Origin: Chitinophagaceae bacterium UBA7600
GTDB taxonomy: Bacteria; Bacteroidota; Bacteroidia; Chitinophagales; Chitinophagaceae
DNA length: 64,000 nucleotides
Direction of reading: 5' to 3'
Assembly (NCBI GenBank): GCA_002478885.1
Contig: DLKC01000105.1
Coordinates: 1-64,000 of the forward strand
The notes below the pieces were generated by a model. The model made no database searches, was not told where the DNA came from, and worked only from the letters and a program-made list of their open reading frames with translations. Positions within the stretch are counted from its first letter, which is position 1. Each line of letters opens with the position of its first letter. Positions 23,590-51,173 of this stretch are shown here, in pieces. The position numbers and the translations under genes are program-made.

Positions 23590-24063
23590 ATGCAGCAAGA
23601 ACGCAGATCACTGATCAAACGTCTGTTCGGTTCATTAGTGGCCGTGACAGGCATCGGACTTACCAGCACAGCAAGTGCAAGCACCAGTTCAACTGACGAA
23701 AAGCAGGCTGGCAATATTGAGTATGACCAGGATATTCCTTTGTTTTCGGGTCACACAATGCTTGGCAATATGGTATTCATTGCCGGCAAGGGCGCACATT
23801 TTGCAGGCGACATTACGTCACATACCGACCACGTGCTTAAGGAGCTCGAAAAGGAACTTATTCTTGCAGGCTCTTCTATGGATAAGGTGTTGAAAGTTAA
23901 TGTTTACCTGAACGACATAGCCGATTACAAAGGCATGAACGATGTTTTCAAAGGAAGGTTTGGGCCAAATCCACCGGTGCGCACCACTGTTGCAGTGGCA
24001 AAAGGCGGTGTCCCGGGCGATTCAATGGTGGAAATGGATTGTATCGCTTATATCACGAAGTAA
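23590..24063 (+). CDS. Exported RidA family enamine/imine deaminase (RidA-1)
   Basis: A 157-residue protein: N-terminal leader with twin arginines (ERRSLIKR, then a hydrophobic stretch to about 30), followed by a RidA fold at about 43-157. The substrate-binding arginine R131 (PPVRTT) and the glutamate in VEMDCIAY are present, so deaminase activity is plausible. RidA proteins hydrolyse reactive enamines and imines made by PLP enzymes. The leader looks Tat-type, giving a periplasmic RidA, which is unusual. The PLP enzyme gene follows after 55 bases and has the same kind of leader, strongly suggesting that the two work together. Confidence 0.85.
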   Translation: MQQERRSLIKRLFGSLVAVTGIGLTSTASASTSSTDEKQAGNIEYDQDIPLFSGHTMLGNMVFIAGKGAHFAGDITSHTDHVLKELEKELILAGSSMDKVLKVNVYLNDIADYKGMNDVFKGRFGPNPPVRTTVAVAKGGVPGDSMVEMDCIAYITK

Positions 24064-24118
24064 CCCTTTTTTTATTCCGGGTATTTCTATTTTCTCATTC
24101 AACAAGTATCCCTCTATC

Positions 24119-25336
24119 ATGAAACGCAGAGACCTGATCAAAAACCTTTCTATGCTGCCCGTAGCGGGCGCAGCTGGTTCGTTGATTGCCGCAGAAGTAA
24201 AAGCCTCCCCGACGCCGGCAGCAAAGCGTAACCTTTTTAAAGAGCTGGGCATCCGCACATTTATTAATGCGGCGGGCACCTATACTTTCATGACCGGCTC
24301 TCTTATGCGCGACGAAGTGGTGGAAGCCATACAATACACTTCGCATGAGTTCTGTTTGCTTGATGAAGTGCAGGATAAGGTTGGTGCTAAAATCGCTGAG
24401 CTGTGCAAAGCTGAATCAGCAGTTGTAACGGCAGGTTGTTTTTCTGCGATCACCCTTGGAACGGCAGGAGTGTTAACCGGCAACAGCCAGGAAAACGCAG
24501 CTAAACTTCCACATTTGGAAGGTACCGGCATGAAGAGCGAAGTGATTATGCAGAAAGGCCATGCGATCGGTTATGCAAATGCTTTATCCAACACAGGTTG
24601 TAAGGTCGTTGTTATTGAAACAATGGAAGAGGTAGAGAAAGCCATTAACAATAAAACCGCTTTGCTTTGGTTTTTGAATATTCAGTCAGACCAGGGTAAG
24701 ATCACCCACGAGCAATGGGTGGCGCTCGGCAAAAAACACAATATTCCCACCATGATCGACATGGCTGCCGATGTGCCGCCCTTGAGCAATCTCTGGAAGT
24801 TCAACGAAATGGGATTCGATCTCGTTTGTGTTTCCGGTGGCAAGGCTATCCGGGGCCCTCAGAGTGCGGGCATACTTATGGGTAAAAAAGAGCTGATTGC
24901 CGCTGCCCGTTTGTCAATGCCTCCGCGCGGTTCAACCATTGGCCGTGGCATGAAGGTAAATAAGGAAGAGATCATTGGCATGTATGCCGCACTCGATCAC
25001 TATATGCAATACGACCACGATGCGGAATGGAAAGAGTGGGAAGGGCGTGTAGCAACCATCAACAACTCGGTAAAGAACATTGATGGTATAAAGACCGAGG
25101 TAAAGGTACCGACGCTCGGCAATGTTACGCCAACGTTGCACATTACCTGGGACAAAACAAAAATGAAACTCACGTCGAAAGCTTTGCAGGAAGGCCTGCG
25201 CAACGGCGACCCCTCTATCGAAATAGTCAATAACGGCGATGAGCATATTAGCATTACTACCTGGGTAATGAAGAAAGGAGAAGATAAGATCGTTGCAAAA
25301 CGATTGAAAGAAGAAATGATGAAAGGAATGGCTTAG
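24119..25336 (+). CDS. SelA/DgaE-like PLP-dependent enzyme with Tat leader (PLP-1)
   Basis: A 405-residue fold-type I PLP enzyme. The leader MKRRDLIKNLSMLPVAGAAG is a twin-arginine signal; a mature domain follows from about 35. Lys242 in VSGGKAIRGPQ is the expected PLP lysine, with the cofactor aspartate in MIDMAADVPP. The closest relatives I know are the SelA-like group that includes D-glucosaminate-6-phosphate ammonia-lyase (DgaE) and TIGR01437 proteins. Ammonia-lyase or dehydratase action on an amino-sugar acid is inferred. Start at 24119 is chosen because it begins the leader. It is very similar to the gene at 42556. Confidence 0.85.
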   Translation: MKRRDLIKNLSMLPVAGAAGSLIAAEVKASPTPAAKRNLFKELGIRTFINAAGTYTFMTGSLMRDEVVEAIQYTSHEFCLLDEVQDKVGAKIAELCKAESAVVTAGCFSAITLGTAGVLTGNSQENAAKLPHLEGTGMKSEVIMQKGHAIGYANALSNTGCKVVVIETMEEVEKAINNKTALLWFLNIQSDQGKITHEQWVALGKKHNIPTMIDMAADVPPLSNLWKFNEMGFDLVCVSGGKAIRGPQSAGILMGKKELIAAARLSMPPRGSTIGRGMKVNKEEIIGMYAALDHYMQYDHDAEWKEWEGRVATINNSVKNIDGIKTEVKVPTLGNVTPTLHITWDKTKMKLTSKALQEGLRNGDPSIEIVNNGDEHISITTWVMKKGEDKIVAKRLKEEMMKGMA

Positions 25337-25346
25337 CTTGCTGTTT

Positions 25347-25395
25347 CCGGCAGTGGCACTTCGTGGCATCGCCGGTTGTGCACAGTGCCGGCTTA
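25347..25395 (+). repeat. Intergenic repeat, subtype D
   Basis: CCGGC end, spacer ending GGCATCGCC, then GGTTGTGCACAGTGCCGGC in place of the usual core. A second copy of this arrangement is at 60380-60428. It shares spacer sequence with the subtype A copy at 19457-19505. Confidence 0.55.
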
Positions 25396-25596: not shown

Positions 25597-27330
25597 ATGA
25601 AAAAAATTCTTGCGATTGGCATTTGGCTATCATCTGCTGTTTTTTTTACGCAGTGCAAAAGTGAACTTAAAGGAGATGCCGACAATGGCGGACTAATGTT
25701 GCCCAATGGTTTCGAAGCCCTGGTAGTTGTTGACAGCCTTGGTTCGGCAAGGCACCTGGCTGTGAACGACAATGGCGATATTTATGTTAAGCTGCGTGCT
25801 TCCTATCCTGATGGCAGCAATGTTGCAATGCGCGATGAAGACGGCGATGGTAAAGCCGATGTAATAAAAAAGTTTGGCTTGTATACCGATGAAATGGGTT
25901 ACGGAACAGCCATGCGCATTTATAATGGCTACCTCTATTTCAGTTCTACGGGCGATGTGTTCCGCGTTAAATTAAGGCCCGGCGAGTTGCTACCCGATAC
26001 TGCAATGGAACTCATTGTTCATGATGATTACATGCATGACCCGCACGGGGCACAGCATACCGCCAAACCGGTAACTTTTGATGACAAGGGAAGAATGTAT
26101 GTGCCCTACGGCGCACCGTCAGATGTGTGCCAGCAATTCGACAGAATTCCTGAATCGCCAGGCCAAAACCCTTGCCCCGAACTGGAAGAGCATGGCGGCA
26201 TCTGGACCTTCGATCCAAACAAAACCAACCAGACAATCAAAGACGGAAAGCGTTACGCAACCGGCATCCGCAGCGCCGTTGCGATGACATGGAACCCCAA
26301 TGATAAAACACTTTATATTGTTCAGCATGGCCGCGACGACCTGCATAGAACCTGGCCTGCCTTGTATTCAAGATGGCAAAGCACGTTATTGCCATCCGAA
26401 GAATTCTTAAAAGTTGATGAAGGCGCCGATTGCGGATGGCCCTATTATTATTACGACCAGATGCAGGGTAAACTCTTACTCAACCCTGAATATGGAGGCG
26501 ATGGAAAGAAAGAGGGCAATGCCGCAAAATATGATCAGCCATTGATTGGTTTCCCAGGTCACTTCGCGCCAAACGATATTTTATTCTACACGGGTAACCA
26601 GTTTCCTGAACGGTATAAAAATGGTGCGTTCATCGCGTTTCACGGCTCTACCATTCGTGCGCCTTATTCGCAGGGTGGTTATTTTGTAGCATTCGTTCCA
26701 TTCAAAGAAGGTAAGCCATCCGGTCCGTGGGAAGTTTTTGCCGATGGCTTTTCAGGTATGGATACCATCGTTAATACAAGCGACGCAGATGCCCGCCCGA
26801 TGGGCCTGGCACAAGGCCCCGACGGTTCCATATATGTCAGCGAGTCACGCAGGGGAAAAATTTGGCGCATTATTTACAAAGGTGATAAAGCGAAATTTGG
26901 CGATGCTGATCTTGCAGCGATGGCAAAAAGAAAAACAACCAGTGCGCATATCAAAGACCCTGATGAAGTAAAAGATAATCTCCAGAAAGGCGTGGTCTCC
27001 GGAGGCGAGCAGCTTTACCAAACCTATTGTGGAGCTTGTCATCTTCAAAATGGCAAAGGCGATGAATCGCGTTTTCCTCCACTTGATAGTTCTGAATATG
27101 TAATGGGCGATAAAGACCGGCTGATAGGGATTTTGCTTAACGGACTTCATGAGCCGATCACCGTAAAAGGCAAGGAATGGAATAGCGTAATGCCCAGCCA
27201 CGGTTTCTTGACCGATGAGCAGCTATCCCTTGTGTTATCTTATGTACGTAAAAATTTTGGGCATAATGCAAGTGAAGTAAGTGTAGCCGAAGTTACCGCA
27301 AAAAGAAGCAAGCCTGCGGTGGCCAAGTAA
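25597..27330 (+). CDS. PQQ-type sugar dehydrogenase fused to cytochrome c, lipoprotein (DH-1)
   Basis: A 577-residue lipoprotein (lipobox FTQC near residue 20). Residues about 30-440 are a sorbosone/soluble glucose dehydrogenase-like beta-propeller; about 460-560 is a class I cytochrome c with C478-x-x-C481-H482 and a likely axial Met in VMPSHGF. Such fusions oxidise aldoses or aldehydes in the periplasm and pass electrons to the respiratory chain. Binding of PQQ is inferred from the family; no PQQ synthesis genes are in view. It is a paralogue of the gene at 32460 and is followed after 20 bases by RidA-2, so the two are co-transcribed. Confidence 0.85.
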   Translation: MKKILAIGIWLSSAVFFTQCKSELKGDADNGGLMLPNGFEALVVVDSLGSARHLAVNDNGDIYVKLRASYPDGSNVAMRDEDGDGKADVIKKFGLYTDEMGYGTAMRIYNGYLYFSSTGDVFRVKLRPGELLPDTAMELIVHDDYMHDPHGAQHTAKPVTFDDKGRMYVPYGAPSDVCQQFDRIPESPGQNPCPELEEHGGIWTFDPNKTNQTIKDGKRYATGIRSAVAMTWNPNDKTLYIVQHGRDDLHRTWPALYSRWQSTLLPSEEFLKVDEGADCGWPYYYYDQMQGKLLLNPEYGGDGKKEGNAAKYDQPLIGFPGHFAPNDILFYTGNQFPERYKNGAFIAFHGSTIRAPYSQGGYFVAFVPFKEGKPSGPWEVFADGFSGMDTIVNTSDADARPMGLAQGPDGSIYVSESRRGKIWRIIYKGDKAKFGDADLAAMAKRKTTSAHIKDPDEVKDNLQKGVVSGGEQLYQTYCGACHLQNGKGDESRFPPLDSSEYVMGDKDRLIGILLNGLHEPITVKGKEWNSVMPSHGFLTDEQLSLVLSYVRKNFGHNASEVSVAEVTAKRSKPAVAK

Positions 27331-27350: not shown

Positions 27351-27884
27351 ATGAAAAAGCTTTTCCTGTTTATCATCAGCACCTCGTTGCTGTTTCCCGT
27401 AATCGGCGTTGCGCAGCAATCAACCGATCCCGAAGCAAGAATAAAAGAATTGGGTATCCAGTTGATCACACCACGGCCGCCGGTTGCCAATTATTTAAAA
27501 GCCGTGCAGGTCGGCAATATGGTGTACCTGTCAGGCCATGGGCCTGATAAGCCAGACGGGTCGCTTGTTACAGGCAAAGTAGGAAAAGACGTCACCGTCG
27601 ACCAAGCCATCGACGCCGCACGGTTAACCGGCATCTCTTTGTTGTCAACACTCAAAGCGCAAATCGGCGATCTTAATAAAGTAAAACGCATCGTAAGAGT
27701 TTTCGGAATGGTGAACGCGGTTGACACATTTACACAACATCCAAAAGTAATCAACGGTTGTTCCGATCTTATGGTGCAGGTATTTGGCGAAAACGGCAAA
27801 CATGCGCGTTGCGCTGTAGGCATGGGTTCACTGCCTATGAATATATCAGTTGAGATCGAAATGATCGTTGAATTAAAGCAATAA
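27351..27884 (+). CDS. Exported RidA family protein (RidA-2)
   Basis: A 177-residue protein with a Sec-type signal (1-21, ending VAQQ) and a RidA fold at about 35-177. It is of the longer RidA type (GHGPDKPDG, VRVFGMVN, HARCAVGMGSLPMN), with Arg in HAR and the final glutamates in VEIEMIVEL. It differs clearly from RidA-1 and RidA-3. Located 20 bases after DH-1, ahead of the second PLP enzyme. A role in deaminating the unstable product of a PLP enzyme in the periplasm is inferred from context. Confidence 0.8.
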   Translation: MKKLFLFIISTSLLFPVIGVAQQSTDPEARIKELGIQLITPRPPVANYLKAVQVGNMVYLSGHGPDKPDGSLVTGKVGKDVTVDQAIDAARLTGISLLSTLKAQIGDLNKVKRIVRVFGMVNAVDTFTQHPKVINGCSDLMVQVFGENGKHARCAVGMGSLPMNISVEIEMIVELKQ

Positions 27885-28043: not shown

Positions 28044-29672
28044 ATGAAGCGCAGAAACATTTTAAAAGGACTTTCCTTATTGCCATTTGCAGGTGCAGCC
28101 ACCGCATTCAAATCATATGCTGCGGCCGATGATAAAAACATTATTGGCGCAGCGGGTGATTTTTTTGATGAACAAAACATCTTTCGCACGATTGGCGTAG
28201 AGCCAATAATCAATTGCCGCGGAACCTTCACCATCATAGGCGGTTCCATAGAACGGCCCGAAGTGCGTGCCGCCATGGAAGCAGCATCGAAGAATTTTAT
28301 TCAGTATGATGAGCTGGCAGATGGCATTCATAAACGGCTGGCAGAAATAACAGGTGCAGAATGGGCCCTCGTTTCAGCAGGTTGTGCAGCAGGTTTAAAA
28401 CACGTAACAGCGGCCTGCGTAACCGGCGGCAACCCGGAAAAGCTTACCCGTATTCCCAACCTCGAAGGTTTTGATAAAACAGAAGTGGTGATACCATCCT
28501 CCTCCAGGAATGTATACGATCATGCGATCAGGAATATTGGAGTGAGGGTTATAACCGTTGATACTTTAGCACAGATGGAAGCCGCATTGAACGAGCGCAC
28601 TGCCATGATCTACCTGATGGCCTTTGATGAGGCGCAGCCTGGTAATGAATTCACACTTGAAAATGTTTCAAAGATTGCCAGGCCAAAAAATATTCCGGTA
28701 TTGATCGATGCAGCCGCCGAGGTGCTCACCATTCCCAATGTGCATTTGCAGAAGGGTGCAGACATTGTCGCATACAGCGGCGGTAAAGCCATCTGCGGGC
28801 CGCAATGCGCAGGCCTTGTACTTGGAAAAAAGAATATACTGATGTCTGCCTGGCAGGCAAGTTCTCCACATCATGGACCCGGCCGCGACAATAAGGTAGG
28901 TCGTGAAGAAATGATGGGCATGCTTGCCGCTGTGGAAGCGTGGACCAAACGCGATCATGCCGCTGAATGGAAAACATGGCTCGGATACCTTGATAATATT
29001 TCCAAAAAACTCACTGCTATTCCCGGGGTTACCGCCTCAGTGTTTGAGCCAACAGAATTATCCAACCGTTCGCCGGTCTTGAACGTTTCCTGGGACCCTG
29101 CAAAATTCAACATCACCGGTGCTGAAATGGCCGAACTTGTCGGCAGAAGCAAACCAAGAATCGCGATTGGCAGTGACGATAAAGACGGGCAGGCAGCAAT
29201 TGATATTACCACAGGCCAAATGCAACCGGGCAATGATGTTATTGTTGCCAATCGGTTGTACGAAGTGCTTACTGCCAAACGCAGCCCGAAGGTTACCACG
29301 ATGGCTGTCCCAACCGTGAATTTAAGCGGCAGTTGGGAAGCAACCATACAATTCTTTAGCAGCACGAGTAAGCATATGCTTTTTATTGAGCAGGACGGCA
29401 AGTGGATAAAGGGTGCCCACAAAGGAGATTTTACAGTAAGGGAGTTAACCGGAGAAGTAGAAAGCAACACCAGCGTGAAAATGAGAAGCACAGAGCGTCG
29501 TCCCGGCGATAGCGTGACTTTTATCTTCACTGGAAATATAAGTACTGATACAATTTCAGGCTCGATCTATATGGGAGAATATCGCACCGCTACATTCACT
29601 GCGAAACGCACCAGTTATAAGATCACGCCGGGTTCCATTACAGTGCCGGGCGGCCCGCCATTGGCGACGTAG
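28044..29672 (+). CDS. SelA/DgaE-like PLP enzyme with extra C-terminal domain (PLP-2)
   Basis: A 542-residue protein. A twin-arginine leader (MKRRNILKGLSLLPFAG) precedes a SelA-like PLP domain to about residue 415, with the lysine K248 in YSGGKAICGPQ and aspartate in LIDAAAEV. Residues about 425-535 are an added beta-rich domain (NLSGSWEATIQFF ... SGSIYMGEY), resembling a small lipocalin-like barrel, absent from PLP-1 and PLP-3. It is the most diverged of the three paralogues, so it may use another substrate or bind a partner. ATG at 28044 starts the leader. Predicted periplasmic ammonia-lyase or dehydratase (inference). Confidence 0.85.
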   Translation: MKRRNILKGLSLLPFAGAATAFKSYAAADDKNIIGAAGDFFDEQNIFRTIGVEPIINCRGTFTIIGGSIERPEVRAAMEAASKNFIQYDELADGIHKRLAEITGAEWALVSAGCAAGLKHVTAACVTGGNPEKLTRIPNLEGFDKTEVVIPSSSRNVYDHAIRNIGVRVITVDTLAQMEAALNERTAMIYLMAFDEAQPGNEFTLENVSKIARPKNIPVLIDAAAEVLTIPNVHLQKGADIVAYSGGKAICGPQCAGLVLGKKNILMSAWQASSPHHGPGRDNKVGREEMMGMLAAVEAWTKRDHAAEWKTWLGYLDNISKKLTAIPGVTASVFEPTELSNRSPVLNVSWDPAKFNITGAEMAELVGRSKPRIAIGSDDKDGQAAIDITTGQMQPGNDVIVANRLYEVLTAKRSPKVTTMAVPTVNLSGSWEATIQFFSSTSKHMLFIEQDGKWIKGAHKGDFTVRELTGEVESNTSVKMRSTERRPGDSVTFIFTGNISTDTISGSIYMGEYRTATFTAKRTSYKITPGSITVPGGPPLAT

Positions 29673-29824: not shown

Positions 29825-31081
29825 ATGATGAAGAGACTATTAAGTGTTATTGTATTTGTGTTGCTTGTGGTTCAATCGATGCGTGCACAGCAATACGACC
29901 TGCTGCTGAAAGGCGGCCATGTGATTGATCCGAAAAACAAGATTGATGCAGAGATGGATGTTGCTGTGAGCGCCGGGAAAATAGCACAGGTGGCCAAAAA
30001 TATCAATGCGAAAAACGCCAAACAGGTGATTGATGTAACAGGCAAATATGTAACACCGGGCATCATCGACATGCATGTGCATGCGTTCAATGGCGCCGAT
30101 GTAGATTCCTATATCGCAAACGGGTTGACCAGTCTGCCTCCGGACGGATTTACATTTCGCGCAGGTGTTACAACCGTGGTGGATGCAGGTTCGTCAGGCT
30201 GGAGAAATTTCCGGCAGTTCAAAAAACAAACGATCGATAAATCGCAGACACGCGTCCTTGCGTTCCTCAATATTGTGGGTACGGGCATGTATGGCCGTTT
30301 TGAGGAACAGGACACGAGTGATATGAACCCGCAGCAAGCCGCATGGATGATCAAAAAATTATATCCTGACATTATTGTAGGTATTAAATCGGCGCATTAC
30401 TGGGGCGATTTTACACAAGTTGACAAGGCAGTGCAGGCAGGCAATCTTGCCAATGTACCGGTTATAGTTGACTTTGGCGAGCATGACCCGCCGAATTCCA
30501 TCGAAGCATTGTTCATGCAGCATTTGAGGCCGGGAGATATTTTTACGCATACTTATTCGTATGGCCCAAAAGTGCGGGAAACCGTTGTTGATGAAAACCA
30601 AAAAGTAAAACCTTTTATTTTCAAAGCGCAGCAGCGCGGAATTATTTTTGATGTGGGCCATGGAGGCGGCGCATTCTCCTGGAGACAGGCTGTACCCGCA
30701 GTGCAACAGGGCTTTCTGCCGAATGTAATCAGTACCGACCTGCATTCTCAAAGTATGAACGGCGGCATGAAAGATATGAGCAATGTGATGTCGAAATTTC
30801 TTGCCCTTGGTTTGTCGCTCAATGATGTGATCCTTCGTTCAACATGGAACCCGGCACAGGTTATCAAACGCCCCGAACTTGGCAATCTCGATGTGGGTGC
30901 CGAAGCCGACATAGCAGTATTTAGTATTAGAAAAGGCGACTTTGGCTTTTTAGATATCCGCAATACCGTCTTAAAAGGCACACAGAAACTGGAAACTGAA
31001 TTAACACTGCGTGCAGGCAAGGTAATGTGGGATCTGAATGGACTCGCAGCTCAACCGTGGGAGAATGAATTGAAAAAATAA
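29825..31081 (+). CDS. Exported amidohydrolase/deacetylase family metallohydrolase (AH-1)
   Basis: A 418-residue protein with a signal peptide (about 1-22, ending RAQQ) and a dihydroorotase-like amidohydrolase barrel. Metal ligands are readable: H84 and H86 (DMHVHAF), bridging K188 (VGIKSAHY), histidines in THTYS and VGHGG, and Asp in STDLHS. The family (TIGR03583-like, EF_0837 type) occurs beside SelA-like PLP enzymes and is annotated as a deacetylase; N-deacylation of an N-acetyl amino acid or amino-sugar acid is inferred. It is followed after 2 bases by a second copy. Confidence 0.85.
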   Translation: MMKRLLSVIVFVLLVVQSMRAQQYDLLLKGGHVIDPKNKIDAEMDVAVSAGKIAQVAKNINAKNAKQVIDVTGKYVTPGIIDMHVHAFNGADVDSYIANGLTSLPPDGFTFRAGVTTVVDAGSSGWRNFRQFKKQTIDKSQTRVLAFLNIVGTGMYGRFEEQDTSDMNPQQAAWMIKKLYPDIIVGIKSAHYWGDFTQVDKAVQAGNLANVPVIVDFGEHDPPNSIEALFMQHLRPGDIFTHTYSYGPKVRETVVDENQKVKPFIFKAQQRGIIFDVGHGGGAFSWRQAVPAVQQGFLPNVISTDLHSQSMNGGMKDMSNVMSKFLALGLSLNDVILRSTWNPAQVIKRPELGNLDVGAEADIAVFSIRKGDFGFLDIRNTVLKGTQKLETELTLRAGKVMWDLNGLAAQPWENELKK

Positions 31082-31083
31082 AA

Positions 31084-32358
31084 GTGAAGAACCGGTCAGC
31101 ATATACCAGCAAAATACGCAACAGGCATCGTACGATTGAAAGAATAAAACTCTTGATTGTACTTATGTCTGTTGCTGCTTATGCCCCTGCGCAACAATAC
31201 GACCTCCTGATAATAAACGGGCATGTGATCGACCCAAAGAATAAGATCGATGCGGTATTGGATGTAGCAGTTGCAGATGGGAAAATAGCAAAACTTGCCA
31301 CTGGTATTGACTCATTGCAATCAAAAAAAATTATCGATGCAAAAGGGTTGTATGTTGTGCCGGGCCTTATTGATATGCATACGCATGTTTTTGTTGGCAG
31401 CAAACCAGGAACATTTGCCGATGGTATGTACAGTGTGTCTGCCGATGACTTTAGTTTTCGGTCGGGCGTCACCACGATGGTCGACGCAGGCACATCTGGC
31501 TGGCAGAATTTTCCATTGTTTAAAGAACAAGTGATCGATCATTCACAAACGCGCATACTTGCATTCTTAAATATTTTTGGTACAGGCCTATCCAGCGGGC
31601 AGGCGATAAAAGACATCAGTACGATCAATGAAGATTCTACAGTTGCCATTATGCAACGTTACAGGGATCTTATCGTTGGTTCCCGTATCGGTCATTTTGA
31701 TGGCAGCGACTGGACGCCATTCAATACAGCACTTGATGCAGCAACCAAAATGAATGAACCGCTTTTTGTCGAATGCCATTTGCCGCAATACAGCTTACGG
31801 GATCAGTTGAAAAAAATGCGGCCAGGTGACATCATTACGCATTCTTACGAAGAGATTACAGAGCGGCTACCTGTTGTAGACAGCAGCGGGAAACTGCATT
31901 CATTTGTCCTCGATGCACAGCAGCGCGGCGTATTGTTTGATGTTGGCCACGGCGGCGCCGGTTTTTGGTTTAGCCAGGCTGTGCCTGCATTTCAGCAAGG
32001 GCTTGCGCCAAATACTTTTGGCACCGACCTGCATCGATTCAGCATGAACGCCGGCATGAAAAGCATACTCAATATCATGTCGAAATACCTCAACCTGGGC
32101 ATGAGCGTAAATGATGTTGTCACCCGTGCATCATGGAATGCAGCAAAAGCCCTGAAGCATGAAGAACTGGGCAATTTAAGTGAAGGCTCAGTCGCCGATA
32201 TCGCCATTCTCAATTTGCAGCATGGTAGTTTCGGATTTGTCGATGCCGGTGGCAAACGACTCAGCGGCGATAAAAAATTAGAAGCAGAACTAACCATACG
32301 TGCAGGTAAAATTGTGTGGGATTTAAATGGATTGTCAGCGCAACCCTATCAACGGTGA
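31084..32358 (+). CDS. Exported amidohydrolase paralogue with altered metal site (AH-2)
   Basis: A 424-residue paralogue of AH-1 sharing the barrel and most ligands: H99 and H101 (DMHTHVF), ITHSYE, VGHGG and GTDLHR. The position of the bridging lysine (K188 in AH-1, K186 in AH-3) is Arg201 (VGSRIGHF), so it cannot form the usual carboxylated-lysine binuclear centre. It may be mononuclear, altered in substrate, or a non-catalytic partner. The start is a GTG two bases after the AH-1 stop, consistent with coupled translation; a hydrophobic signal (LLIVLMSVAAYAPAQQ) follows. Confidence is high for the family, low for activity. Confidence 0.8.
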   Translation: MKNRSAYTSKIRNRHRTIERIKLLIVLMSVAAYAPAQQYDLLIINGHVIDPKNKIDAVLDVAVADGKIAKLATGIDSLQSKKIIDAKGLYVVPGLIDMHTHVFVGSKPGTFADGMYSVSADDFSFRSGVTTMVDAGTSGWQNFPLFKEQVIDHSQTRILAFLNIFGTGLSSGQAIKDISTINEDSTVAIMQRYRDLIVGSRIGHFDGSDWTPFNTALDAATKMNEPLFVECHLPQYSLRDQLKKMRPGDIITHSYEEITERLPVVDSSGKLHSFVLDAQQRGVLFDVGHGGAGFWFSQAVPAFQQGLAPNTFGTDLHRFSMNAGMKSILNIMSKYLNLGMSVNDVVTRASWNAAKALKHEELGNLSEGSVADIAILNLQHGSFGFVDAGGKRLSGDKKLEAELTIRAGKIVWDLNGLSAQPYQR

Positions 32359-40243: not shown

Positions 40244-40256
40244 TTTCTGTAAACAA

Positions 40257-40314: not shown

Positions 40315-40327
40315 AGTTGTTCCCAAT

Positions 40328-40379
40328 GTACAAGTGTGCGACGCAACAGCAGCTTAATAGCATTACAAGGGCCCCGGCC
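40328..40379 (-). repeat. Intergenic repeat, subtype A (right arm of palindrome)
   Basis: Minus-strand core GTTGCGTCGCACACTTGTAC at 40328-40347 and GGCCGGGGCC end near 40379, ending 17 bases from the stop of the ceramidase-like gene. Confidence 0.9.
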
Positions 40380-40395
40380 CATAAAAATTATTTTA

Positions 40396-41814: not shown

Positions 41815-41843
41815 AGCAGTTGCGTTGTAAATGAATGAAGATA

Positions 41844-42555: not shown

Positions 42556-43776
42556 ATGAAACGCAGGGATGTGCTGAAAAACATTTCGTTACTGCCATTG
42601 GCAGGAGGGCTCGCCGGGACACTGGTGCCCGCAGCAAAAACAGTTGCAGCCCCGATTGCTAAACGGGATGTTTTTACAGAACTAGGCCTGCGAACATTTA
42701 TAAATGCTGCAGGCACCTACACTTCGATGACCGCATCGCTGATGCCGGACGAAGTGATGGAAGCAATTAACCAGGCGTCTAAAGAATACGTAATGCTTGA
42801 TGAGGTGCAGGATAAAGCTGGGGCTAAAATCGCGGAGCTGTGCCATGCAGAAGCAGCAATGGTTACGGCAGGCTGCTGGTCAGCGATAGTACTTGGTACA
42901 GCTGGCGTGATAACCGGAGCCGATCCGAAAAAAGTTGGTTTGTTGCCAAATCTTGAAGGTACGGCCTTGAAGTCGGAAGTGATCATTCAAAAAAGTCACA
43001 GCGTGGGCTATGATCATGCGGTAACCAATACCGGTGCAAAGTTGGTGATCGTAGAGACGGCGGAAGAAGCAGAACGCGCCATCAATGACAAGACCGCAAT
43101 GACGTGGTTTCTTAATAAAGAAGTTGCCTCGGGCAAGATCAAACACGAAGAGTGGCTACAGATTTCGAAAAAACATAACATACCCGCTATGATCGATATG
43201 GCGGCCGATGTGCCGCCCGTTGAAAACCTCTGGAAGTATAACGATATGGGTTTTGACCTGGTATGTATTTCCGGTGGCAAGGCCATGTGCGGGCCACAGA
43301 GCACAGGCCTACTCATGGGAAAGAAAGACCTTATAGCTGCAGCAAGGCTCAATGGCCCTCCGGGTGGCGGCAATATCGGGCGTGGTATGAAAGTGAACAA
43401 GGAAGAGATCATTGGCATGTACGTGGCACTAGACAGCTATATAAAACGAGATCATGCTAAAGAATGGAAGATGTGGGAAGGTAAGATCGCAACCATCAAT
43501 AACGCTGTAAAAAGTATAACCGCTGTTAAAACAGAAATAGTGATACCGCCTGTTGCGAATCATACACCTTCGCTGGAAATAAGATGGGATAACAGTAAAA
43601 TAAAACTAACCAAAGAAGAAATGGGCCTGAAACTGCGCAATGGATATCCTTCCATTGAAACAGTGTCGTGGGAGAAAGATAATAGCATTCGCGTAACCGT
43701 ATTTATGCTAAAACCCGGGCAGGAAAAAGTGGTGGCGTCGAGAATTAAAGAAGAACTCCTGGCGGCTTCAGTTTAG
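42556..43776 (+). CDS. SelA/DgaE-like PLP-dependent enzyme with Tat leader (PLP-3)
   Basis: A 406-residue close paralogue of PLP-1. Twin-arginine leader MKRRDVLKNISLLPLAGG, PLP lysine K242 in ISGGKAMCGPQ, MIDMAADVPP and a shared MKVNKEEIIGMY block. Predicted to be folded with PLP in the cytoplasm and exported by Tat. Start at 42556 chosen because it begins the leader. Followed after 52 bases by AH-3, giving the minimal PLP-amidohydrolase pair; with the divergent RidA-3, it forms the third module. Predicted ammonia-lyase or dehydratase (inference). Confidence 0.85.
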   Translation: MKRRDVLKNISLLPLAGGLAGTLVPAAKTVAAPIAKRDVFTELGLRTFINAAGTYTSMTASLMPDEVMEAINQASKEYVMLDEVQDKAGAKIAELCHAEAAMVTAGCWSAIVLGTAGVITGADPKKVGLLPNLEGTALKSEVIIQKSHSVGYDHAVTNTGAKLVIVETAEEAERAINDKTAMTWFLNKEVASGKIKHEEWLQISKKHNIPAMIDMAADVPPVENLWKYNDMGFDLVCISGGKAMCGPQSTGLLMGKKDLIAAARLNGPPGGGNIGRGMKVNKEEIIGMYVALDSYIKRDHAKEWKMWEGKIATINNAVKSITAVKTEIVIPPVANHTPSLEIRWDNSKIKLTKEEMGLKLRNGYPSIETVSWEKDNSIRVTVFMLKPGQEKVVASRIKEELLAASV

Positions 43777-43828: not shown

Positions 43829-45076
43829 ATGAAAAAAATTGCTTTAGCGTTGTTTGCCGTTGCCGTGTGCACATTACCAGTCATTGCACAGTCTTATGAC
43901 ATAGTGATCAAAGCCGGTCATGTTATAGACCCAAAAAATAATATCGATGCGGTAATGGATGTAGCCATTAAAGATGGTAAAGTAGCGCAACTTGCTGCAA
44001 ACATCGACGGGTCACAGGCAAAGCAGGTAGTGGATGCAAAAGGTTTGTACGTAGTGCCGGGCATCATCGATCTGCATGCGCACGTTTTCTTTGGAACGCA
44101 GCCCGATCATTATCTCAGCGATGGATTGGTTGCTGTAGTGCCTGATGGCTTTACTTTTCGTGTGGGTGTTACAACAGTGGTGGATGCAGGCGGCGCAGGC
44201 TGGAAATCTTTCCCGACTTTCAAAAAGAATATCATCGATAATTCACAAACACGGGTATTATCGTTGCTGAATATTGTTGGAGAAGGCATGCGTGGTGGAG
44301 CCTATGAGCAGAACATCAACGACATGGATCCAAAGATGGCGGCCTTTGTTGCAAAGGCGAATAAAGATATTGTTGTAGGTTTTAAAGTGGCACATTACCA
44401 GGGCGCCGAATGGCAGCCGGTCGATCGTGCAGTGGAAGCAGGTAAACTCGCCAACATGCCCGTAATGGTTGACTTTGGCGGCAACACGCCTCCGCTTTCC
44501 ATCGAAGAATTGTTTATGAAACATCTTCGTCCCGGAGACATTTACACACACACTTATACTTTGCTCGAAGGCAATGTAAGGGAAACCGTTGTCGATACGG
44601 CCACCAATAAAGTAAAGTCATTCATCTGGGATGCGATAAAGAAGGGTATCGTGTTCGATGTAGGTTATGGCGGTGCAAGTTTTAATTTCACACAGGCAAT
44701 ACCCGCATTAAAACAGGGTTTCTTCCCAAAGACAATCAGCACAGACCTGCATACCGGCAGCATGAACACATCGATGAAAAATCAACTCGACGTAATGTCT
44801 AAATTCCTGCTCATGGGTATGCCGCTTAACGAAGTAATTAAGGCCAGCACATGGGCGCCTGCGCAGGTGATCAGGCATGAAGAACTTGGCCATCTTTCTG
44901 TTGGTGCCGTTGCAGATGTTGCGATCCTTGATCTTCGCCAGGGCAACTTTGGTTTCTATGATAAAACAGGTTACAAGGTGCAGGGAAAACAAAAGTTCGA
45001 ATGCGAAATGACGATCAGGGCAGGTAGGGTAGTGTACGACCTCAATGGCATCGCCAATCCTATTTATGTAAAGTAA
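43829..45076 (+). CDS. Exported amidohydrolase/deacetylase family metallohydrolase (AH-3)
   Basis: A 415-residue paralogue of AH-1 with signal peptide (1-20, ending VIAQS). Ligands are complete: H83 and H85 (DLHAHVF), bridging K186 (VGFKVAHY), THTYT, the VGYGG stretch and STDLHT. VGYGG has Tyr where AH-1 and AH-2 have His (VGHGG), so one second-shell or metal position differs. Expected to remove an acyl group from an N-acetyl amino compound in the periplasm (inferred). It pairs with PLP-3 upstream. Confidence 0.85.
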   Translation: MKKIALALFAVAVCTLPVIAQSYDIVIKAGHVIDPKNNIDAVMDVAIKDGKVAQLAANIDGSQAKQVVDAKGLYVVPGIIDLHAHVFFGTQPDHYLSDGLVAVVPDGFTFRVGVTTVVDAGGAGWKSFPTFKKNIIDNSQTRVLSLLNIVGEGMRGGAYEQNINDMDPKMAAFVAKANKDIVVGFKVAHYQGAEWQPVDRAVEAGKLANMPVMVDFGGNTPPLSIEELFMKHLRPGDIYTHTYTLLEGNVRETVVDTATNKVKSFIWDAIKKGIVFDVGYGGASFNFTQAIPALKQGFFPKTISTDLHTGSMNTSMKNQLDVMSKFLLMGMPLNEVIKASTWAPAQVIRHEELGHLSVGAVADVAILDLRQGNFGFYDKTGYKVQGKQKFECEMTIRAGRVVYDLNGIANPIYVK

Positions 45077-45439: not shown

Positions 45440-47050
45440 ATGAAATTTAGAAGCTCGTTATTACTGGCTATTGTTTTAGGTGCTGCCATGCTTTCCTGCA
45501 GCAGCAAGAAAACATATAAAAGCACGATGCATAACCTTATTCCGAAGCCGGTTTCAGCAAACGAAACAAATGAAGTATTCACGTTGAGCGACAGCACGGC
45601 CATTTATGTGCAAAGCGATTCTCCCGCTGATCTCCAGGTCGCACAATGGTTTGCTGATAAAATAAAACCGGCTACCGGCTTTGCCTTGAAAGTATCGGCC
45701 TCTAAAGAAGCGCCAAAAGCGGGCGGCATTTATTTGATTTACGGCACCGACAGTACGCTAGGCGATGAAGGCTATGAGTTAAACATTTCCAAAGACATGG
45801 TGAGAATAACAGCGAACACACCTGCAGGCTGGTTCTACGCTTTACAAACGATAAGGCAACTGTTACCACCTGATGCGGAGCTCGGCACTACTCAAAAAGG
45901 CCCCTGGCAAATTGCTGCCGGAACCATTCGCGACTATCCTGAATACACCTATCGTGGCAGCATGCTCGACGTTGCACGGCATTTCTTTAGCGTAGAAGAT
46001 GTAAAGCGTTATATCGATCTTATTGCTGCTTACAAAATGAATATCCTACACCTGCACTTGTCAGACGACCAGGGCTGGCGTATCGAAATAAAATCATGGC
46101 CCAATCTCACCAGCATAGGCGGAAGCACAGAAGTTGGTGGCGGCAAAGGAGGTTTCTACACGCAGGAACAATACAAAGACATTGTAAAATATGCCCAGGA
46201 CCGTTTTGTGACCATCATTCCAGAAATAGATATGCCGGGGCATACCAACGCCGCCCTGGCTTCTTATCCCGAGCTGCATAGCATCGATTCATCGGTTGCC
46301 AACCTGCAGAAAAATATGGAGCAGCACAAAGAAACAGATACCGCCATCAATCTTTATACCGGGACAGAAGTTGGTTTCAGCACTTTGCGCACCCACAAAG
46401 AAATCACCTACAAATTCATCGACGACGTAATCCGCGAACTGGCTGCCATTACGCCGGGACCATGGATACATATTGGCGGCGACGAAAGCCATGTTACTTC
46501 AAAAGAAGATTACATTCCTTTTGTAACGAAAGTGCAGCAAATGGTAGTAGCACATGGCAAGAAGGTAATCGGCTGGGACGAGATCGCACTCTCCACCACC
46601 ATGCAGCCAAACAGCGCCGTCCAGTTTTGGGCCGACGCAGACAACTCAAAACTTGCTGTGTCAAAAGGCGCGAAAGTTATTATGTCGCCGGCAAAAAAAG
46701 CTTACCTCGATATGCAATACGATTCCACTACAAGACTTGGGCTGCATTGGGCTGCCTATATTGAAGTGGACAGTGCTTATATGTGGGATCCCGCCAACTA
46801 CGCAGACAGCATCAGGCGTGAAAATATACTCGGCGTTGAAGGCGCGTTGTGGTCGGAGACGATTACCAAGATGGATGATATCGAATACATGGTCTTTCCA
46901 CGTTTGCCAGGCCTTGCCGAACTGGCGTGGTCTCCCGCTGCGGGCAGAAGCTGGGATGAATATAAAGTGCGTTTAGGCAACCAGGCCCCACGCTTCAAGG
47001 CGATGGGTATTGATTACTATCCTTCCAAACTGGTGCCGTGGAAAGAATAG
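45440..47050 (+). CDS. GH20 beta-N-acetylhexosaminidase, lipoprotein
   Basis: A 536-residue enzyme: lipoprotein signal with lipobox MLSC (about residues 15-18), an N-terminal zincin-like domain, then the GH20 barrel at about 165-500. The catalytic pair is D348-E349 in HIGGDES. It removes terminal GlcNAc or GalNAc from glycans by substrate-assisted catalysis. ATG at 45440 begins the signal; a TTG further up is less likely. First gene of a run with SMP-30, RraA, BASS and CBM9-like genes, immediately after AH-3, which fits amino-sugar use. Confidence 0.9.
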   Translation: MKFRSSLLLAIVLGAAMLSCSSKKTYKSTMHNLIPKPVSANETNEVFTLSDSTAIYVQSDSPADLQVAQWFADKIKPATGFALKVSASKEAPKAGGIYLIYGTDSTLGDEGYELNISKDMVRITANTPAGWFYALQTIRQLLPPDAELGTTQKGPWQIAAGTIRDYPEYTYRGSMLDVARHFFSVEDVKRYIDLIAAYKMNILHLHLSDDQGWRIEIKSWPNLTSIGGSTEVGGGKGGFYTQEQYKDIVKYAQDRFVTIIPEIDMPGHTNAALASYPELHSIDSSVANLQKNMEQHKETDTAINLYTGTEVGFSTLRTHKEITYKFIDDVIRELAAITPGPWIHIGGDESHVTSKEDYIPFVTKVQQMVVAHGKKVIGWDEIALSTTMQPNSAVQFWADADNSKLAVSKGAKVIMSPAKKAYLDMQYDSTTRLGLHWAAYIEVDSAYMWDPANYADSIRRENILGVEGALWSETITKMDDIEYMVFPRLPGLAELAWSPAAGRSWDEYKVRLGNQAPRFKAMGIDYYPSKLVPWKE

Positions 47051-47184: not shown

Positions 47185-48090
47185 ATGAAACCGGTTACAA
47201 CATTTCTTAGCTTTCTTATCGGCGCAATGGTCGCATGTAGTCCGCCAAAAGCGGCAACAGCTGATTTGTACCAATCTTCCACGTTTACGGCAGACAATAG
47301 TTTCACCACCGGTGCAGAAGGCCCTGCCGTTGATAAAGATGGAAATGTGTATGCCGTCAATTTTCAGAAAGAAAGCACGATTTGCAAACTCGATAAACAA
47401 GGCAAAGGAGGCATCTTTATTGAGCTTGCTGATAGCAGCGATGGTAATGGCCTGCGTTTTAACAGCAAAGGAGATTTACTGGTTGCTGATTATACCCGCC
47501 ACAATATTTTAAAAGTTGATATGGCAACAAAACAGGTGTCGGTGTATGCACACAATGCAACTATGAACCAACCCAACGATATTGCCATCGACAGCAAAGA
47601 CCGCTTATACGCAAGTGATCCCAACTGGAAGGCAGGTACGGGAAGAATATGGCGTATAGATAACGATGGTAAAGCGACCATACTTGAAGATAACATGGGC
47701 ACCACCAACGGAATTGAAGTCAGCCCGGATGAAAAGCATTTATATGTAAATGAATCGGTGCAACGCAAAGTATGGGTTTACGATCTTTCTTCAGATGGCA
47801 ACATCGGCAATAAGCGCTTATTGATTGAGTTTCCTGATTTTGGTTTCGATGGTATGCGCTGCGATGTGAAAGGAAATCTGTACATGACAAGGTATGGAAA
47901 AGGTACAGTAGTAAAGGTTTCACCCGAGGGGAAAATATTAAGAGAAATAAACCTAACCGGCAAAAATTGCAGCAATATTTGTTTTGGCGGCAAAGATGGT
48001 CGCACTGCCTATGTAACATTGCAGGACACAAAGAATATGGAAACATTTCGCGTGGAAGACGCAGGAAGGGAGTGGAAAATGATGCAGTAA
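47185..48090 (+). CDS. SMP-30/gluconolactonase-like lipoprotein
   Basis: A 301-residue protein with a lipoprotein signal (lipobox MVAC, about residues 15-18) and a six-bladed SMP-30-like propeller: EGPAVDKDGNVYAV for the first metal glutamate, NDIAIDSKDRLYASD for the Asn/Asp pair, and TNGIEVSPDEKHLYV. These residues bind the divalent metal in gluconolactonase and regucalcin. It could hydrolyse a sugar-acid lactone outside the inner membrane. Located between GH20 and RraA. The lactone formed by DH-1/DH-2 is the obvious candidate substrate (inference). Confidence 0.8.
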   Translation: MKPVTTFLSFLIGAMVACSPPKAATADLYQSSTFTADNSFTTGAEGPAVDKDGNVYAVNFQKESTICKLDKQGKGGIFIELADSSDGNGLRFNSKGDLLVADYTRHNILKVDMATKQVSVYAHNATMNQPNDIAIDSKDRLYASDPNWKAGTGRIWRIDNDGKATILEDNMGTTNGIEVSPDEKHLYVNESVQRKVWVYDLSSDGNIGNKRLLIEFPDFGFDGMRCDVKGNLYMTRYGKGTVVKVSPEGKILREINLTGKNCSNICFGGKDGRTAYVTLQDTKNMETFRVEDAGREWKMMQ

Positions 48091-48229: not shown

Positions 48230-49162
48230 ATGATGGGTATGAAAATAAAACCTGCTTTAGTAATCGTATCGCTTGTAATACTTACTGCAAATGCCCTTGC
48301 GCAGGTAATGCCAAAAGAAGAACTCGTATTTCTTACATCAGAATGGAAAGGTGAGCGCTTTGCCGATGGCCGGCCAAAAGTGCCCGACGAAATTATTGAA
48401 CGTGCAAAACATATCGGTTTTGAATCGGCATGGACGATATTGAAAGGCCAGGGATACAACAACCAGTTTGAAGGCGGCTGGAAGATGGTGAACGATACTG
48501 TGCAGGTAGTTGGGCGTGTGGTTACTGCGCAGTATATGCCGAGCCGCCCAGATGTGGAAGCGAAAATAAAAGAGCGCGGAAAAAATGAAGGCCGCAAAGG
48601 CAACACAAACTCGTGGCCGATAGATGTGTTGCAAAAAGGTGATGTTTATGTAGCTGATGGCATGGGAAAAATACAGAAGGGAACGTTGATCGGTGATAAC
48701 CTCGGGAACGCCATTTACGCGAAGAGCGGCAACGGCGTTATATTCGATGCATCAGCACGCGACCTGTCGGGCCTCTCACAAATCAGTGGTTTCAACGCCT
48801 ACGTGCGGCAGTTCGATCCTTCATATCTTGAAGACGAAGTGCTGATGGGATTGAACACGCCTATAAGAATTGGTCATGCAATTGTGATGCCCGGCGATCT
48901 TGTTATTTCCGATCGCGAAGGTGTGTTGTTCATTCCCGCACATCTTGCAGAGAAAGTGGTTTTCACTGCGGAGTTCATCGACCTGCGCGATCTGTTTGGC
49001 CATGAAATGCTGAAGAAGGGGGTGTATTCCCCCGGACAGATCGACAGCCAGTGGACCGATGAAATAAAAAACGCTTTTTTAAAATGGCTCGACGAACATC
49101 CCGGCTCAACAAAACTTACCAGGGCGCAGTTGGATGAGTTTATGAGCAAAAGAACCTGGTAA
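48230..49162 (+). CDS. Exported RraA-like (HMG aldolase family) protein
   Basis: A 310-residue protein with a signal peptide (about residues 4-25, LALAQ-like end in NALAQ) and an RraA/4-hydroxy-4-methyl-2-oxoglutarate aldolase fold. The active-site loop GTLIGDNLGNAIYA and the metal/substrate pair in FDASARDLSGL (Arg, Asp) are present, so aldolase activity is plausible and RNase-inhibitor function unlikely. A C-terminal extension of about 60 residues follows. Exported RraA-like proteins are unusual. Cleavage of a 2-oxo-4-hydroxy acid from the pathway is inferred. ATG at 48239 is an alternative start. Confidence 0.8.
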   Translation: MMGMKIKPALVIVSLVILTANALAQVMPKEELVFLTSEWKGERFADGRPKVPDEIIERAKHIGFESAWTILKGQGYNNQFEGGWKMVNDTVQVVGRVVTAQYMPSRPDVEAKIKERGKNEGRKGNTNSWPIDVLQKGDVYVADGMGKIQKGTLIGDNLGNAIYAKSGNGVIFDASARDLSGLSQISGFNAYVRQFDPSYLEDEVLMGLNTPIRIGHAIVMPGDLVISDREGVLFIPAHLAEKVVFTAEFIDLRDLFGHEMLKKGVYSPGQIDSQWTDEIKNAFLKWLDEHPGSTKLTRAQLDEFMSKRTW

Positions 49163-49203: not shown

Positions 49204-49252
49204 CCCAACACAAGAATATAAACTGAGCTGCAGTTGTGTCACTCACTTGTAC
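49204..49252 (+). repeat. Intergenic repeat, subtype B
   Basis: Perfect core GTTGTGTCACTCACTTGTAC at 49233-49252; the left CCGG end is degraded. Between the RraA-like and BASS genes. Confidence 0.8.
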
Positions 49253-49288
49253 GCCAGGTAATTCTACGCAACAAAATAATTCTGCTAT

Positions 49289-50404
49289 ATGAATATTTAT
49301 AAAATGGCTTTTGCTTTTGCCGCGGCTTGTTTATTTACTGCTGTGCTTTTTTTTATAAACGGGAACGGCGAATATGCTGACCCGTTGTTGATCGCATTTT
49401 TTATTTTGTTTGCAATTGCCAGCCGCGGTTATGAAGCATTCAAAGGCTTTACTTATACCATTACAATTCTTGCGGCGGTTACCACGGCTTTGTCTTACCC
49501 GCAATATTTTACTTCGTGGAACGGGTTGCTATTGTCAACGCTTATAAAACCATTGATCATGGTGATCATGTTTGGCATGGGCACTTCCATGAGTTTTAAG
49601 GACTTCGCAGGGGTTATTAAAATGCCGAAGGGTGTTTTTATTGGCGTGGTAAGCCACTTTATTATTATGCCACTTATCGGTTATACACTGGCAAGCCTTA
49701 CCAATTTCCCACCTGAAATAGCGGCGGGAATAGTGTTGGTCGGTTGCTCGCCAAACGGAACAGCATCTAACGTAATCTCCTATTTGGCGAAGGCCAATCT
49801 TGCATTGTCCGTTACCATTACTGCTGTATCTACCATGCTGGCCCCATTTGTAACGCCATTACTTATGAAACTGCTTGCAGGTGCATTTGTGCAAATAAAT
49901 GCGATAGACATGATGTTCGAGATATTGCAGATGGTGATTGTTCCTGTTGGCGCCGGTTTAATATTCAATTATTTCCTTCATGGTAAAGTAAAGTGGCTCG
50001 ATAATGCGATGCCAATCGTTTCCATGTCGGCCATTGCATTTATTATAGTGATTATTACTGCCGCAGGCAGGAACAGTCTTTTAACAATCGGCCCTGCATT
50101 GATCCTGGTTGTATTGATTCATAATCTTTGCGGATATACATTAGGTTATTGGACGGGTCGCCTGTTTAAAATGCAGGAACGTGACTGCAGAACGCTGGCA
50201 ATTGAAGTAGGCATGCAAAACGCCGGAATGGCTTCAGGCCTTGCAAAAGCGATGGGTAAAATGGCAACAGTTGGCCTTGCCCCGGCCATATTCGGCCCGT
50301 TGATGAATACTACAGGTTCTGTGCTTGCATCTTACTGGCACCGGAAGCCGCCTGCAGATGATCATGCAGAAAACGTGAATACAGCATTAACCGCTACCTC
50401 TTAA
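49289..50404 (+). CDS. BASS family (bile acid:sodium symporter-like) carrier
   Basis: A 371-residue membrane protein with about ten helices. Motifs of the SBF/BASS family are visible: GMGTSMSFKDF, GCSPNGTASNVISYLAKANLALSV and the GMQNAGMASGLA region. Bacterial BASS proteins import organic anions with sodium, including 2-oxo acids such as pyruvate and ketopantoate. Placed after the RraA-like gene and 16 bases before the CBM9-like gene, it may import the acid product of the periplasmic pathway (inference). Confidence 0.85.
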   Translation: MNIYKMAFAFAAACLFTAVLFFINGNGEYADPLLIAFFILFAIASRGYEAFKGFTYTITILAAVTTALSYPQYFTSWNGLLLSTLIKPLIMVIMFGMGTSMSFKDFAGVIKMPKGVFIGVVSHFIIMPLIGYTLASLTNFPPEIAAGIVLVGCSPNGTASNVISYLAKANLALSVTITAVSTMLAPFVTPLLMKLLAGAFVQINAIDMMFEILQMVIVPVGAGLIFNYFLHGKVKWLDNAMPIVSMSAIAFIIVIITAAGRNSLLTIGPALILVVLIHNLCGYTLGYWTGRLFKMQERDCRTLAIEVGMQNAGMASGLAKAMGKMATVGLAPAIFGPLMNTTGSVLASYWHRKPPADDHAENVNTALTATS

Positions 50405-50420
50405 TAATAAAGTTTTTTTC

Positions 50421-51173
50421 ATGAGCAAACAATACTTTTTGGCAGCAGTGATTTGTTGTGTAGTAAATATCTCTTTTGGTCAGCCAAACACCGGCCTGTT
50501 AAAAGTTAAGATGACTGAAGATTTTGCCATTACCGGCGATGGAACCAGCGCGAACTGGAATGGGGCAGACTGGAATGTGATAACGCAACGTGATAAAACT
50601 ACCCTCCAGCAGAATAACTGGAATACAGAGGGACTGCCTGAACACGATATTCAATATCAAACGCAGTTTAAAGTGCTTTATTCCGCGAAAGGAATTTATT
50701 GCCTGTTTCGGGCGGAGGATAGCTTGTTAACAGTTACAAACAAAGCCGATAATACGCCACTATATAACGAAGATGTAGTGGAGGTTTTTTTGAAACCCGA
50801 CGGCGATGGCAATGATTATTTCGAATACGAATTGTCGCCGTGGAATTTTGAATTGCCCTTAATGATACAGAATAATGGCAAAGACATCAACACATGGCTT
50901 CCCTATATGTATGTAGGTGGGCGAAGAACAACGCATTTGGTGCGGGTGGGAGGGAAAGATGCAAAAACAAACCGATTTACCTGGACCGCAGAGATATTTA
51001 TCCCTTATGAACTCATAGCCACGTTCAACAATGTGCCGCCGCAAAAAGGCACTCAATGGCGCGCCAATTTTTACCGCATAGATTATGACAGAAACCCCGT
51101 TTATTCAAGCTGGTCGCTTACAAGAAGAAGTTATCATGATCCGGAGAAATTCGGAACGCTGGTATTCGAATGA
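50421..51173 (+). CDS. Exported CBM9-like carbohydrate-binding protein
   Basis: A 250-residue protein with a signal peptide (1-20, ending SFGQ) and a family 9-like beta sandwich: FKVLYSAKGIYCLFRAEDS, NEDVVEVFLKP and FFPYELI-type text near the end (IFIPYELIATF). No catalytic motif; such proteins bind carbohydrate, possibly on the cell surface. It is 16 bases downstream of the BASS gene and probably ends that operon. Converges with the ferric-reductase-like gene. Confidence 0.75.
   Translation: MSKQYFLAAVICCVVNISFGQPNTGLLKVKMTEDFAITGDGTSANWNGADWNVITQRDKTTLQQNNWNTEGLPEHDIQYQTQFKVLYSAKGIYCLFRAEDSLLTVTNKADNTPLYNEDVVEVFLKPDGDGNDYFEYELSPWNFELPLMIQNNGKDINTWLPYMYVGGRRTTHLVRVGGKDAKTNRFTWTAEIFIPYELIATFNNVPPQKGTQWRANFYRIDYDRNPVYSSWSLTRRSYHDPEKFGTLVFE

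Follow-up and report, generated by a model that had tools for sequence, protein, structure and literature searches.

The closest described system to the locus considered here is the ong pathway of Pseudoalteromonas prydzensis ACAM 620, in which N-acetylglucosaminic acid (GlcNAc1A) is deacetylated and deaminated to 2-keto-3-deoxygluconate (KDG) (PMC9537276; PMC12017989). The acid there derives from a lytic polysaccharide monooxygenase (LPMO), OngB is D-aminoacylase-like, OngC is a pyridoxal phosphate (PLP) enzyme of fold-type III, both are predicted to be cytoplasmic, and a RidA protein is essential in vivo with its role given as unknown (PMC9537276). Here we analysed a stretch of 64,000 nucleotides from Chitinophagaceae bacterium UBA7600 (assembly GCA_002478885.1, contig DLKC01000105.1, positions 1 to 64,000; hereafter the window), which encodes between positions 23,590 and 51,173 a set of exported RidA proteins, SelA/DgaE-like PLP enzymes, amidohydrolases (AH), dehydrogenase–cytochrome c fusions (DH), an SMP-30/gluconolactonase-like protein (SGL), an RraA-like protein and a BASS-family carrier. 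The core of this gene set is a conserved operon, and we consider an oxidative route for N-acetyl amino sugars or their acids, located outside the cytoplasm, to be its best and on balance probable explanation.

Such a route would share with the ong pathway a GH20 enzyme external to the inner membrane, an N-acetyl sugar acid that is deacetylated, its deamination by a PLP enzyme to give a keto-deoxy acid, and a RidA gene within the cluster, the last of which is present in the window. Oxidation, however, would fall to a DH propeller, and the enzymes of the later steps carry export leaders. The enzymes themselves are of other families: PpOngB (9kb1) aligned to AH-3 over residues 19-87 only (8e-5), a superfamily-level resemblance rather than OngB homology, PLP-3 matches the SelA-like protein 7lc0 and not the fold-type III described for OngC, and a search of the UBA7600 genome gave no LPMO10. 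The initial annotation had been aware of no account of this route outside the cytoplasm. A literature search covering periplasmic and hexosaminate routes, as well as the families of SelA and cog3964, likewise found no exported version, which, coming from open-licence papers only, is weak evidence of absence; the same later chemistry has, however, been published for the cytoplasm (PMC9537276), a fact that annotation had missed. The later chemistry is thus already known from the cytoplasm, where enzymes of different families carry it out, and the exported enzyme set would be the new part.

Conservation and linkage of the gene set

A second genome labelled as the same family (G278) carries on one strand the order RidA1-PLP1-DH1-RidA2-PLP2-AH1-AH2-DH2-PLP3-AH3-SGL-RraA-BASS-DUF4440-CBM9, its operon proteins being 50-83% identical to their window counterparts, and Flavihumibacter profundi (L044) keeps this order, minus RidA2, through SGL, the last gene in the stretch covered. 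Neither contains the block from an AraC gene to a third RidA gene that separates DH-2 from PLP-3 in the window, or the GH20 gene between AH-3 and SGL. Both were considered as core parts: GH20 was rejected on its absence from these two operons, and the block was set aside for the same reason, despite a Spirosoma locus (L022) in which genes related to its 3HCDH and M19 genes lie close to the module. The repeated modules reported by the initial annotation are present, yet they are old paralogues: PLP-1 and PLP-3 share 62% identity, less than PLP-3 and its G278 counterpart (73%), which rules out a recent triplication. The UBA7600 genome encodes three full-size TIGR01437 proteins, every one of them in the window, and one weak match elsewhere.

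Using the three window PLP proteins as queries, we surveyed 79 loci (the best 79 of at least 537 relatives), grouping their open reading frames (ORFs) into families by clustering; by title all belong to Bacteroidota groups with the single exception of one Fodinibius, which NCBI assigns to Balneolota. An AH is encoded in 65 loci and a RidA, of which there are three kinds, in 57; a GSDH-type oxidase occurs in 52, SusC or SusD in 29, a lactonase in 26 and RraA or BASS in 17; AH, RidA and oxidase occur jointly in 44, and together with a lactonase in 22. The AH gene is adjacent to and co-directional with a PLP gene in 54 loci, with a median gap of 44 bases over 67 such neighbours. Some Bacteroidota loci have a GSDH-like protein (21.1 bits, under the Pfam cut-off) and a separate cytochrome c. 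As a control, we counted, among the 48 loci having both flanks, those with a given family within 4 kb of PLP and those with it beyond 6 kb. Near and far counts were 44 and 6 for AH, 31 and 0 for DH, 18 and 3 for RidA1, 14 and 1 for RidA2, 15 and 1 for CBM9, 12 and 0 for cytochrome c, and 13 and 1 for SusD, with the opposite trend for SGL (3 and 11), BASS (1 and 9), a sigma factor (3 and 12) and FecR (4 and 11). This control therefore supports the links of AH, oxidase and RidA and does not on its own reveal a close link for SGL, BASS or the KDGal kinase DgoK, whose putative membership rests on operon order. The neighbourhood survey that the initial annotation had proposed thus links the AH/PLP pair to oxidase, lactonases, RidA, RraA/BASS and SusC/D, but not to GH20, found next to the module in just two cases, L025 and the window. 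Separately, L009, L018 and L019 carry PLP relatives without AH, RidA or oxidase, beside sulfatases and a family with no Pfam match (c44).

An equivalent set lies on a plasmid of Granulicella tundricola (Acidobacteriota) in the order RraA-PLP-RidA-PLP-AH-7-bladed lactonase-FAD/BBE oxidase, together with a beta-galactosidase-family gene, and follows the same logic with a different oxidase and lactonase. By visual inspection, the starts of its RraA, both PLP proteins, RidA, AH and lactonase resemble leaders, unlike that of its BBE oxidase.

Export leaders and catalytic residues

Leader types were read from the protein starts, and a strict and a looser twin-arginine rule were applied to the ORFs of the loci. 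The strict rule is satisfied by 94 of 98 PLP proteins and 41 of 50 RidA1 proteins, compared with 34 of the 897 remaining ORFs in these loci, and the looser one by 96/98 and 49/50, respectively; a hydrophobic core near the start is present in 96 of 97 AH proteins, and TatC is encoded in the UBA7600 genome. The PLP proteins of Priestia and Bartonella are leaderless.

A predicted model of a DH (mean pLDDT 84.5) has its best fold match among the AA12 pyrroloquinoline quinone (PQQ) pyranose dehydrogenases. The residues named for TrAA12 are His153, Arg220, His330 and His350 (PMC6881810), and on our reading of the alignment, in which chain numbering differs from that of the paper by 27, their equivalents are invariant in 25 of 25 DHs, whereas the position of Asp221 is an invariant Ser, replacing the Asx of the Arg/Asx pair. 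The DHs thus share the fold and the cofactor-site His and Arg residues with TrAA12 as described there, but are fused to cytochrome c, are 17-18% identical to it and carry Ser for Asp221; their use of PQQ is putative.

The PLP proteins (Table 1) score far below the TIGR01437 cut-off of 385.3 bits and reach 137-152 bits against a cut-off of 600 for NF047797. They fall into two types, PLP-1 and PLP-3 being 36-37% identical to PLP-2, which has an additional C-terminal extension of about 120-140 residues (29250-29672); both types are found in Granulicella as well. The Schiff-base lysine of the SGGK motif is present in all 100 aligned PLP proteins. None of the 100 has the His-His proton donor of DgaE, and none has Arg at the Arg301 position, near which, towards the C-terminus, the alignment is weak; the missing Arg would suit an unphosphorylated substrate. 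The window-type proteins are therefore homologous to the known SelA-like lyase and share its lysine, but differ from it in lacking the His-His loop and the Arg301 equivalent and in carrying an export leader (PMC9529869). We rejected the idea that loss of His-His explains the need for RidA, as three of three checked Rhizobiales proteins encoded beside RidA retain SHH; the Bartonella PLP protein has SAH with no RidA in the stretch covered, and neither of two haloarchaeal proteins lacking HH is accompanied by an annotated RidA within the stretches covered (10.6 and 11.1 kb).

All three AHs exceed the NF006689 cut-off of 371 bits. His83, His85, His189, His241 and Asp306 are conserved in 98 of 98 aligned proteins and Lys186 in 97; this HxH motif, the further His, the Asp and the Lys are presumably the metal ligands of the site. 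The sole exception at Lys186 is the window AH-2 with Arg, where AH2 of G278 has Lys, so that AH-2 may be altered or inactive. With cog3964/EF_0837-type amidohydrolases (2ogj, 2ics, 8je0) the AHs share the NF006689 score and the metal-site residues, and they differ in being exported and, for AH-2, at the Lys. Atu3266 of this family reportedly hydrolyses acetyl-mandelate and N-acetyl-D-amino acids.

Gene content of the window

Profile searches against Pfam and NCBIfam bore out all gene families listed in the initial annotation, with frames open throughout (Table 1). The plus-strand order is RidA-1, PLP-1, DH-1, RidA-2, PLP-2, AH-1, AH-2, DH-2, the unlike block, PLP-3, AH-3, GH20, SGL, RraA, BASS and CBM9, with intergenic gaps of 2-363 bases within both plus-strand runs. 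For PLP-1 the most likely start is 24119, which gives a Tat-like leader, rather than the ORF start at 23942. The HIGGDE motif of GH20 is taken here to be the catalytic Asp-Glu pair motif of that family. The block (34407-42242) comprises AraC, then on the minus strand an M19 peptidase, a 3HCDH-type dehydrogenase, a NagP/FucP-like MFS carrier, a class III aminotransferase, a ceramidase-like protein and the leaderless third RidA (41844-42242); the FucP-like carrier, which had been counted into the pathway, is thus probably outside the core, as its block is missing in G278 and L044. Encoded upstream (20314-23397) are a protein that ends in a type IX secretion sorting tail and a member of the beta-lactamase family that has a Sec-like leader.

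Table 1 Features of the gene set in the window (Tat, twin-arginine translocation; Sec, general secretion).
Feature	Position	Strand	Evidence
RidA-1, exported, Tat-type leader	23590..24063	+	PF01042; family in 46/79 loci
PLP-1, SelA/DgaE-like ammonia-lyase candidate, Tat-type leader	24119..25336	+	TIGR01437 174.3 bits, under cut-off; SGGK lysine present
DH-1, AA12-like quinoprotein propeller + cytochrome c fusion, lipoprotein-like leader	25597..27330	+	PF07995, PF00034; AA12 fold match
RidA-2, exported, Sec-type leader	27351..27884	+	PF14588/PF01042
PLP-2, second SelA-like type, C-terminal extension, Tat-type leader	28044..29672	+	TIGR01437 145.4 bits; type also in L044, G278, Granulicella
AH-1, exported cog3964-type amidohydrolase/deacetylase, Sec-type leader	29825..31081	+	NF006689 460.5 bits, over cut-off
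AH-2, AH-1-like, Sec-type leader probable; Arg replaces conserved Lys of metal-site region	31084..32358	+	NF006689 414.3 bits
DH-2, DH-1-like, lipoprotein-like leader	32460..34208	+	PF07995, PF00034; 55% identity to DH-1
PLP-3, PLP-1-like, Tat-type leader	42556..43776	+	TIGR01437 183.7 bits; 7lc0 match 7e-31
AH-3, AH-1-like, Sec-type leader	43829..45076	+	NF006689 458.1 bits; matches 8je0, 2ogj, 2ics
GH20 hexosaminidase, lipoprotein-like, accessory	45440..47050	+	PF00728 6.5e-93; HIGGDE motif; outside collinear operon (G278, L044)
SGL, SMP-30/gluconolactonase-like, lipoprotein-like leader	47188..48090	+	PF08450 3.1e-45
RraA-like aldolase/decarboxylase family protein, exported, Sec-type leader	48230..49162	+	PF03737; best solved relative 5x15, 3e-13
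BASS-family carrier, PanS-like	49289..50404	+	PF01758; NF047939 247.5 bits, under cut-off
CBM9-like domain protein, exported	50421..51173	+	PF16011, PF06452

Proposed route, substrate class and alternatives

The proposed route would begin with the DH propellers, which would oxidise an N-acetylhexosamine at C1, or a short oligosaccharide at its reducing end, to yield a lactone; the haem that each DH carries would relay the electrons to the respiratory chain. SGL would open the lactone, the AH enzymes would release acetate, the 2-amino-2-deoxy-aldonate would lose water and ammonia by the action of the Tat-exported PLP enzymes, and exported RidA would hydrolyse the enamine/imine. The 2-keto-3-deoxy acid would then either be taken up or be cleaved by RraA with carboxylate import through BASS; that the whole catabolism, including cleavage by the exported RraA, proceeds outside the inner membrane and only small carboxylates enter via BASS is unlikely. 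Different epimers or substituted forms might account for the presence of two DHs, three AHs and two PLP kinds. Gene content, linkage, export leaders and retained catalytic residues were observed here; from them we infer each reaction, the substrate and where the last step takes place.

The substrate class is indicated by genes encoded next to the AH/PLP pair, where DgoK, aldolase and MFS were identified from one representative per cluster. Two loci (L008, L016) show the order SusC-SusD-PLP-AH-DgoK-KDPG-type aldolase-galactonate-family MFS-PLP, L011 and L021 have DgoK and aldolase farther down, and L047 and L067 contain a galactonate-family MFS; in total such clusters occur in 6 of the 79 loci. 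The link to sugar genes that the initial annotation had put at stake thus exists, with sugar-dehydrogenase-like oxidase and lactonases beside AH/PLP in many relatives and these six sugar-acid clusters. GlcNAc (N-acetylglucosamine) as the specific substrate is not supported in view of the GH20 distribution, and a galacto acid would fit the neighbouring DgoK genes. In unrelated genomes, Priestia has a cytosolic AH-DgaE-KDGP aldolase-sugar kinase-GntR-gluconate symporter cluster, and in Bartonella AH-DgaE-KDGP aldolase adjoins PTS-like genes. Further amino-sugar-related neighbours (NagB-like, GlcNAc-epimerase-like, PIG-L, SGSH_C sulfatases, HGSNAT-like) are present, but such genes are common in these bacteria. 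Among 11 plasmid regions compared, several are uninformative: the Thermomicrobium and Mesorhizobium AHs have no sugar-type neighbours, three Rhizobiales regions have ABC transporters with RidA, and a Pantoea AH has RraA, a hydroxyacid dehydrogenase and a DASS carrier nearby with no PLP gene in view. A haloarchaeal SelA-like gene (L112:2570-9000) has as neighbours an amidohydrolase annotated as D-aminoacylase together with FAH-family, PIG-L and heparinase-family genes, possibly another deacetylase replacement. The UBA7600 genome itself encodes no DGOK and has a KDPG-type aldolase (148.7 bits, cut-off 156.05) adjoining a KDG/KDGal-kinase-like gene (under cut-off) and tagaturonate reductase. Its three GH18, two NagA (over cut-off) and three GH20 genes indicate that the usual cytoplasmic GlcNAc route probably exists alongside the module.

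Several observations weigh against an oxidative amino-sugar route. GH20 is not conserved with the module, a lactonase is present in just 26 of the 79 loci, and AH, RidA and oxidase are all missing in seven, in some owing to short contigs, although four of the seven have full flanks. DgoK and aldolase each occur in one locus within 4 kb and in two beyond 6 kb of PLP among the 48 full-flank loci. The PLP proteins stay under the TIGR01437 cut-off without the His-His of the known lyase. No PqqE over cut-off was found in the UBA7600 genome, though the control for this negative is uninformative, as none of the 14 control genomes exceeds the cut-off either; uptake of PQQ from outside is possible. Finally, the module is rare: in a class-wide sample of 295 genomes searched at E<=1e-40, PLP proteins occur in three (UBA7600, G278 and G290).

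Three other explanations were weighed. The AH/PLP/RidA core might degrade N-acyl-D-beta-hydroxy amino acids of the D-serine/D-threonine type in the periplasm, with the sugar dehydrogenases and lactonase forming a separate neighbouring sugar-oxidation system. In favour are the reported action of the AH-family protein Atu3266 on N-acetyl-D-amino acids, the ABC transporters beside Rhizobiales AH/PLP pairs and an S15 peptidase-family gene near PLP in L009. OngC, a functional analogue, accepts D-serine and D-threonine too (PMC9537276). We consider this explanation rather improbable, as the oxidase is linked to PLP as tightly as RidA is and the PLP/AH pair occurs with KDGP aldolase and gluconate/galactonate carriers in unrelated genomes. 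A substrate already acidic at C6, i.e., a 2-acetamido-2-deoxy-uronic acid converted via an amino-aldarate to a keto-deoxy-aldarate that RraA would split into pyruvate and tartronate semialdehyde, would agree with DctA or TctA carriers (L060, L032), pectate-lyase-like genes (L026, L030, L036) and the uronate-type cluster holding the aldolase and kinase of the UBA7600 genome. These are few loci, however, and DgoK and the galactonate/gluconate-type carriers point to monocarboxylic sugar acids, which makes a uronic acid quite improbable.

That exported enzymes acting on unrelated substrates merely accreted, with no single pathway, would fit the patchy distribution, the partial sets, the paralogues and the unlike block inserted in the window, yet is very improbable given the collinear order at 50-83% protein identity, the AH-PLP adjacency in 54 of 79 loci and the equivalent set in another phylum.

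If the oxidative amino-sugar route is correct, PLP-dependent deamination of amino-sugar acids and imine hydrolysis by RidA would be located in the cell envelope, acetate and ammonia would be released outside the cytoplasm, and the sugar would feed electrons. Exported SelA-like, cog3964, RidA and RraA proteins, hitherto named by family only, would gain a joint function, and the oxidative amino-sugar route reported in 2022 would turn out to have a second set of enzymes, mostly unrelated to the first.

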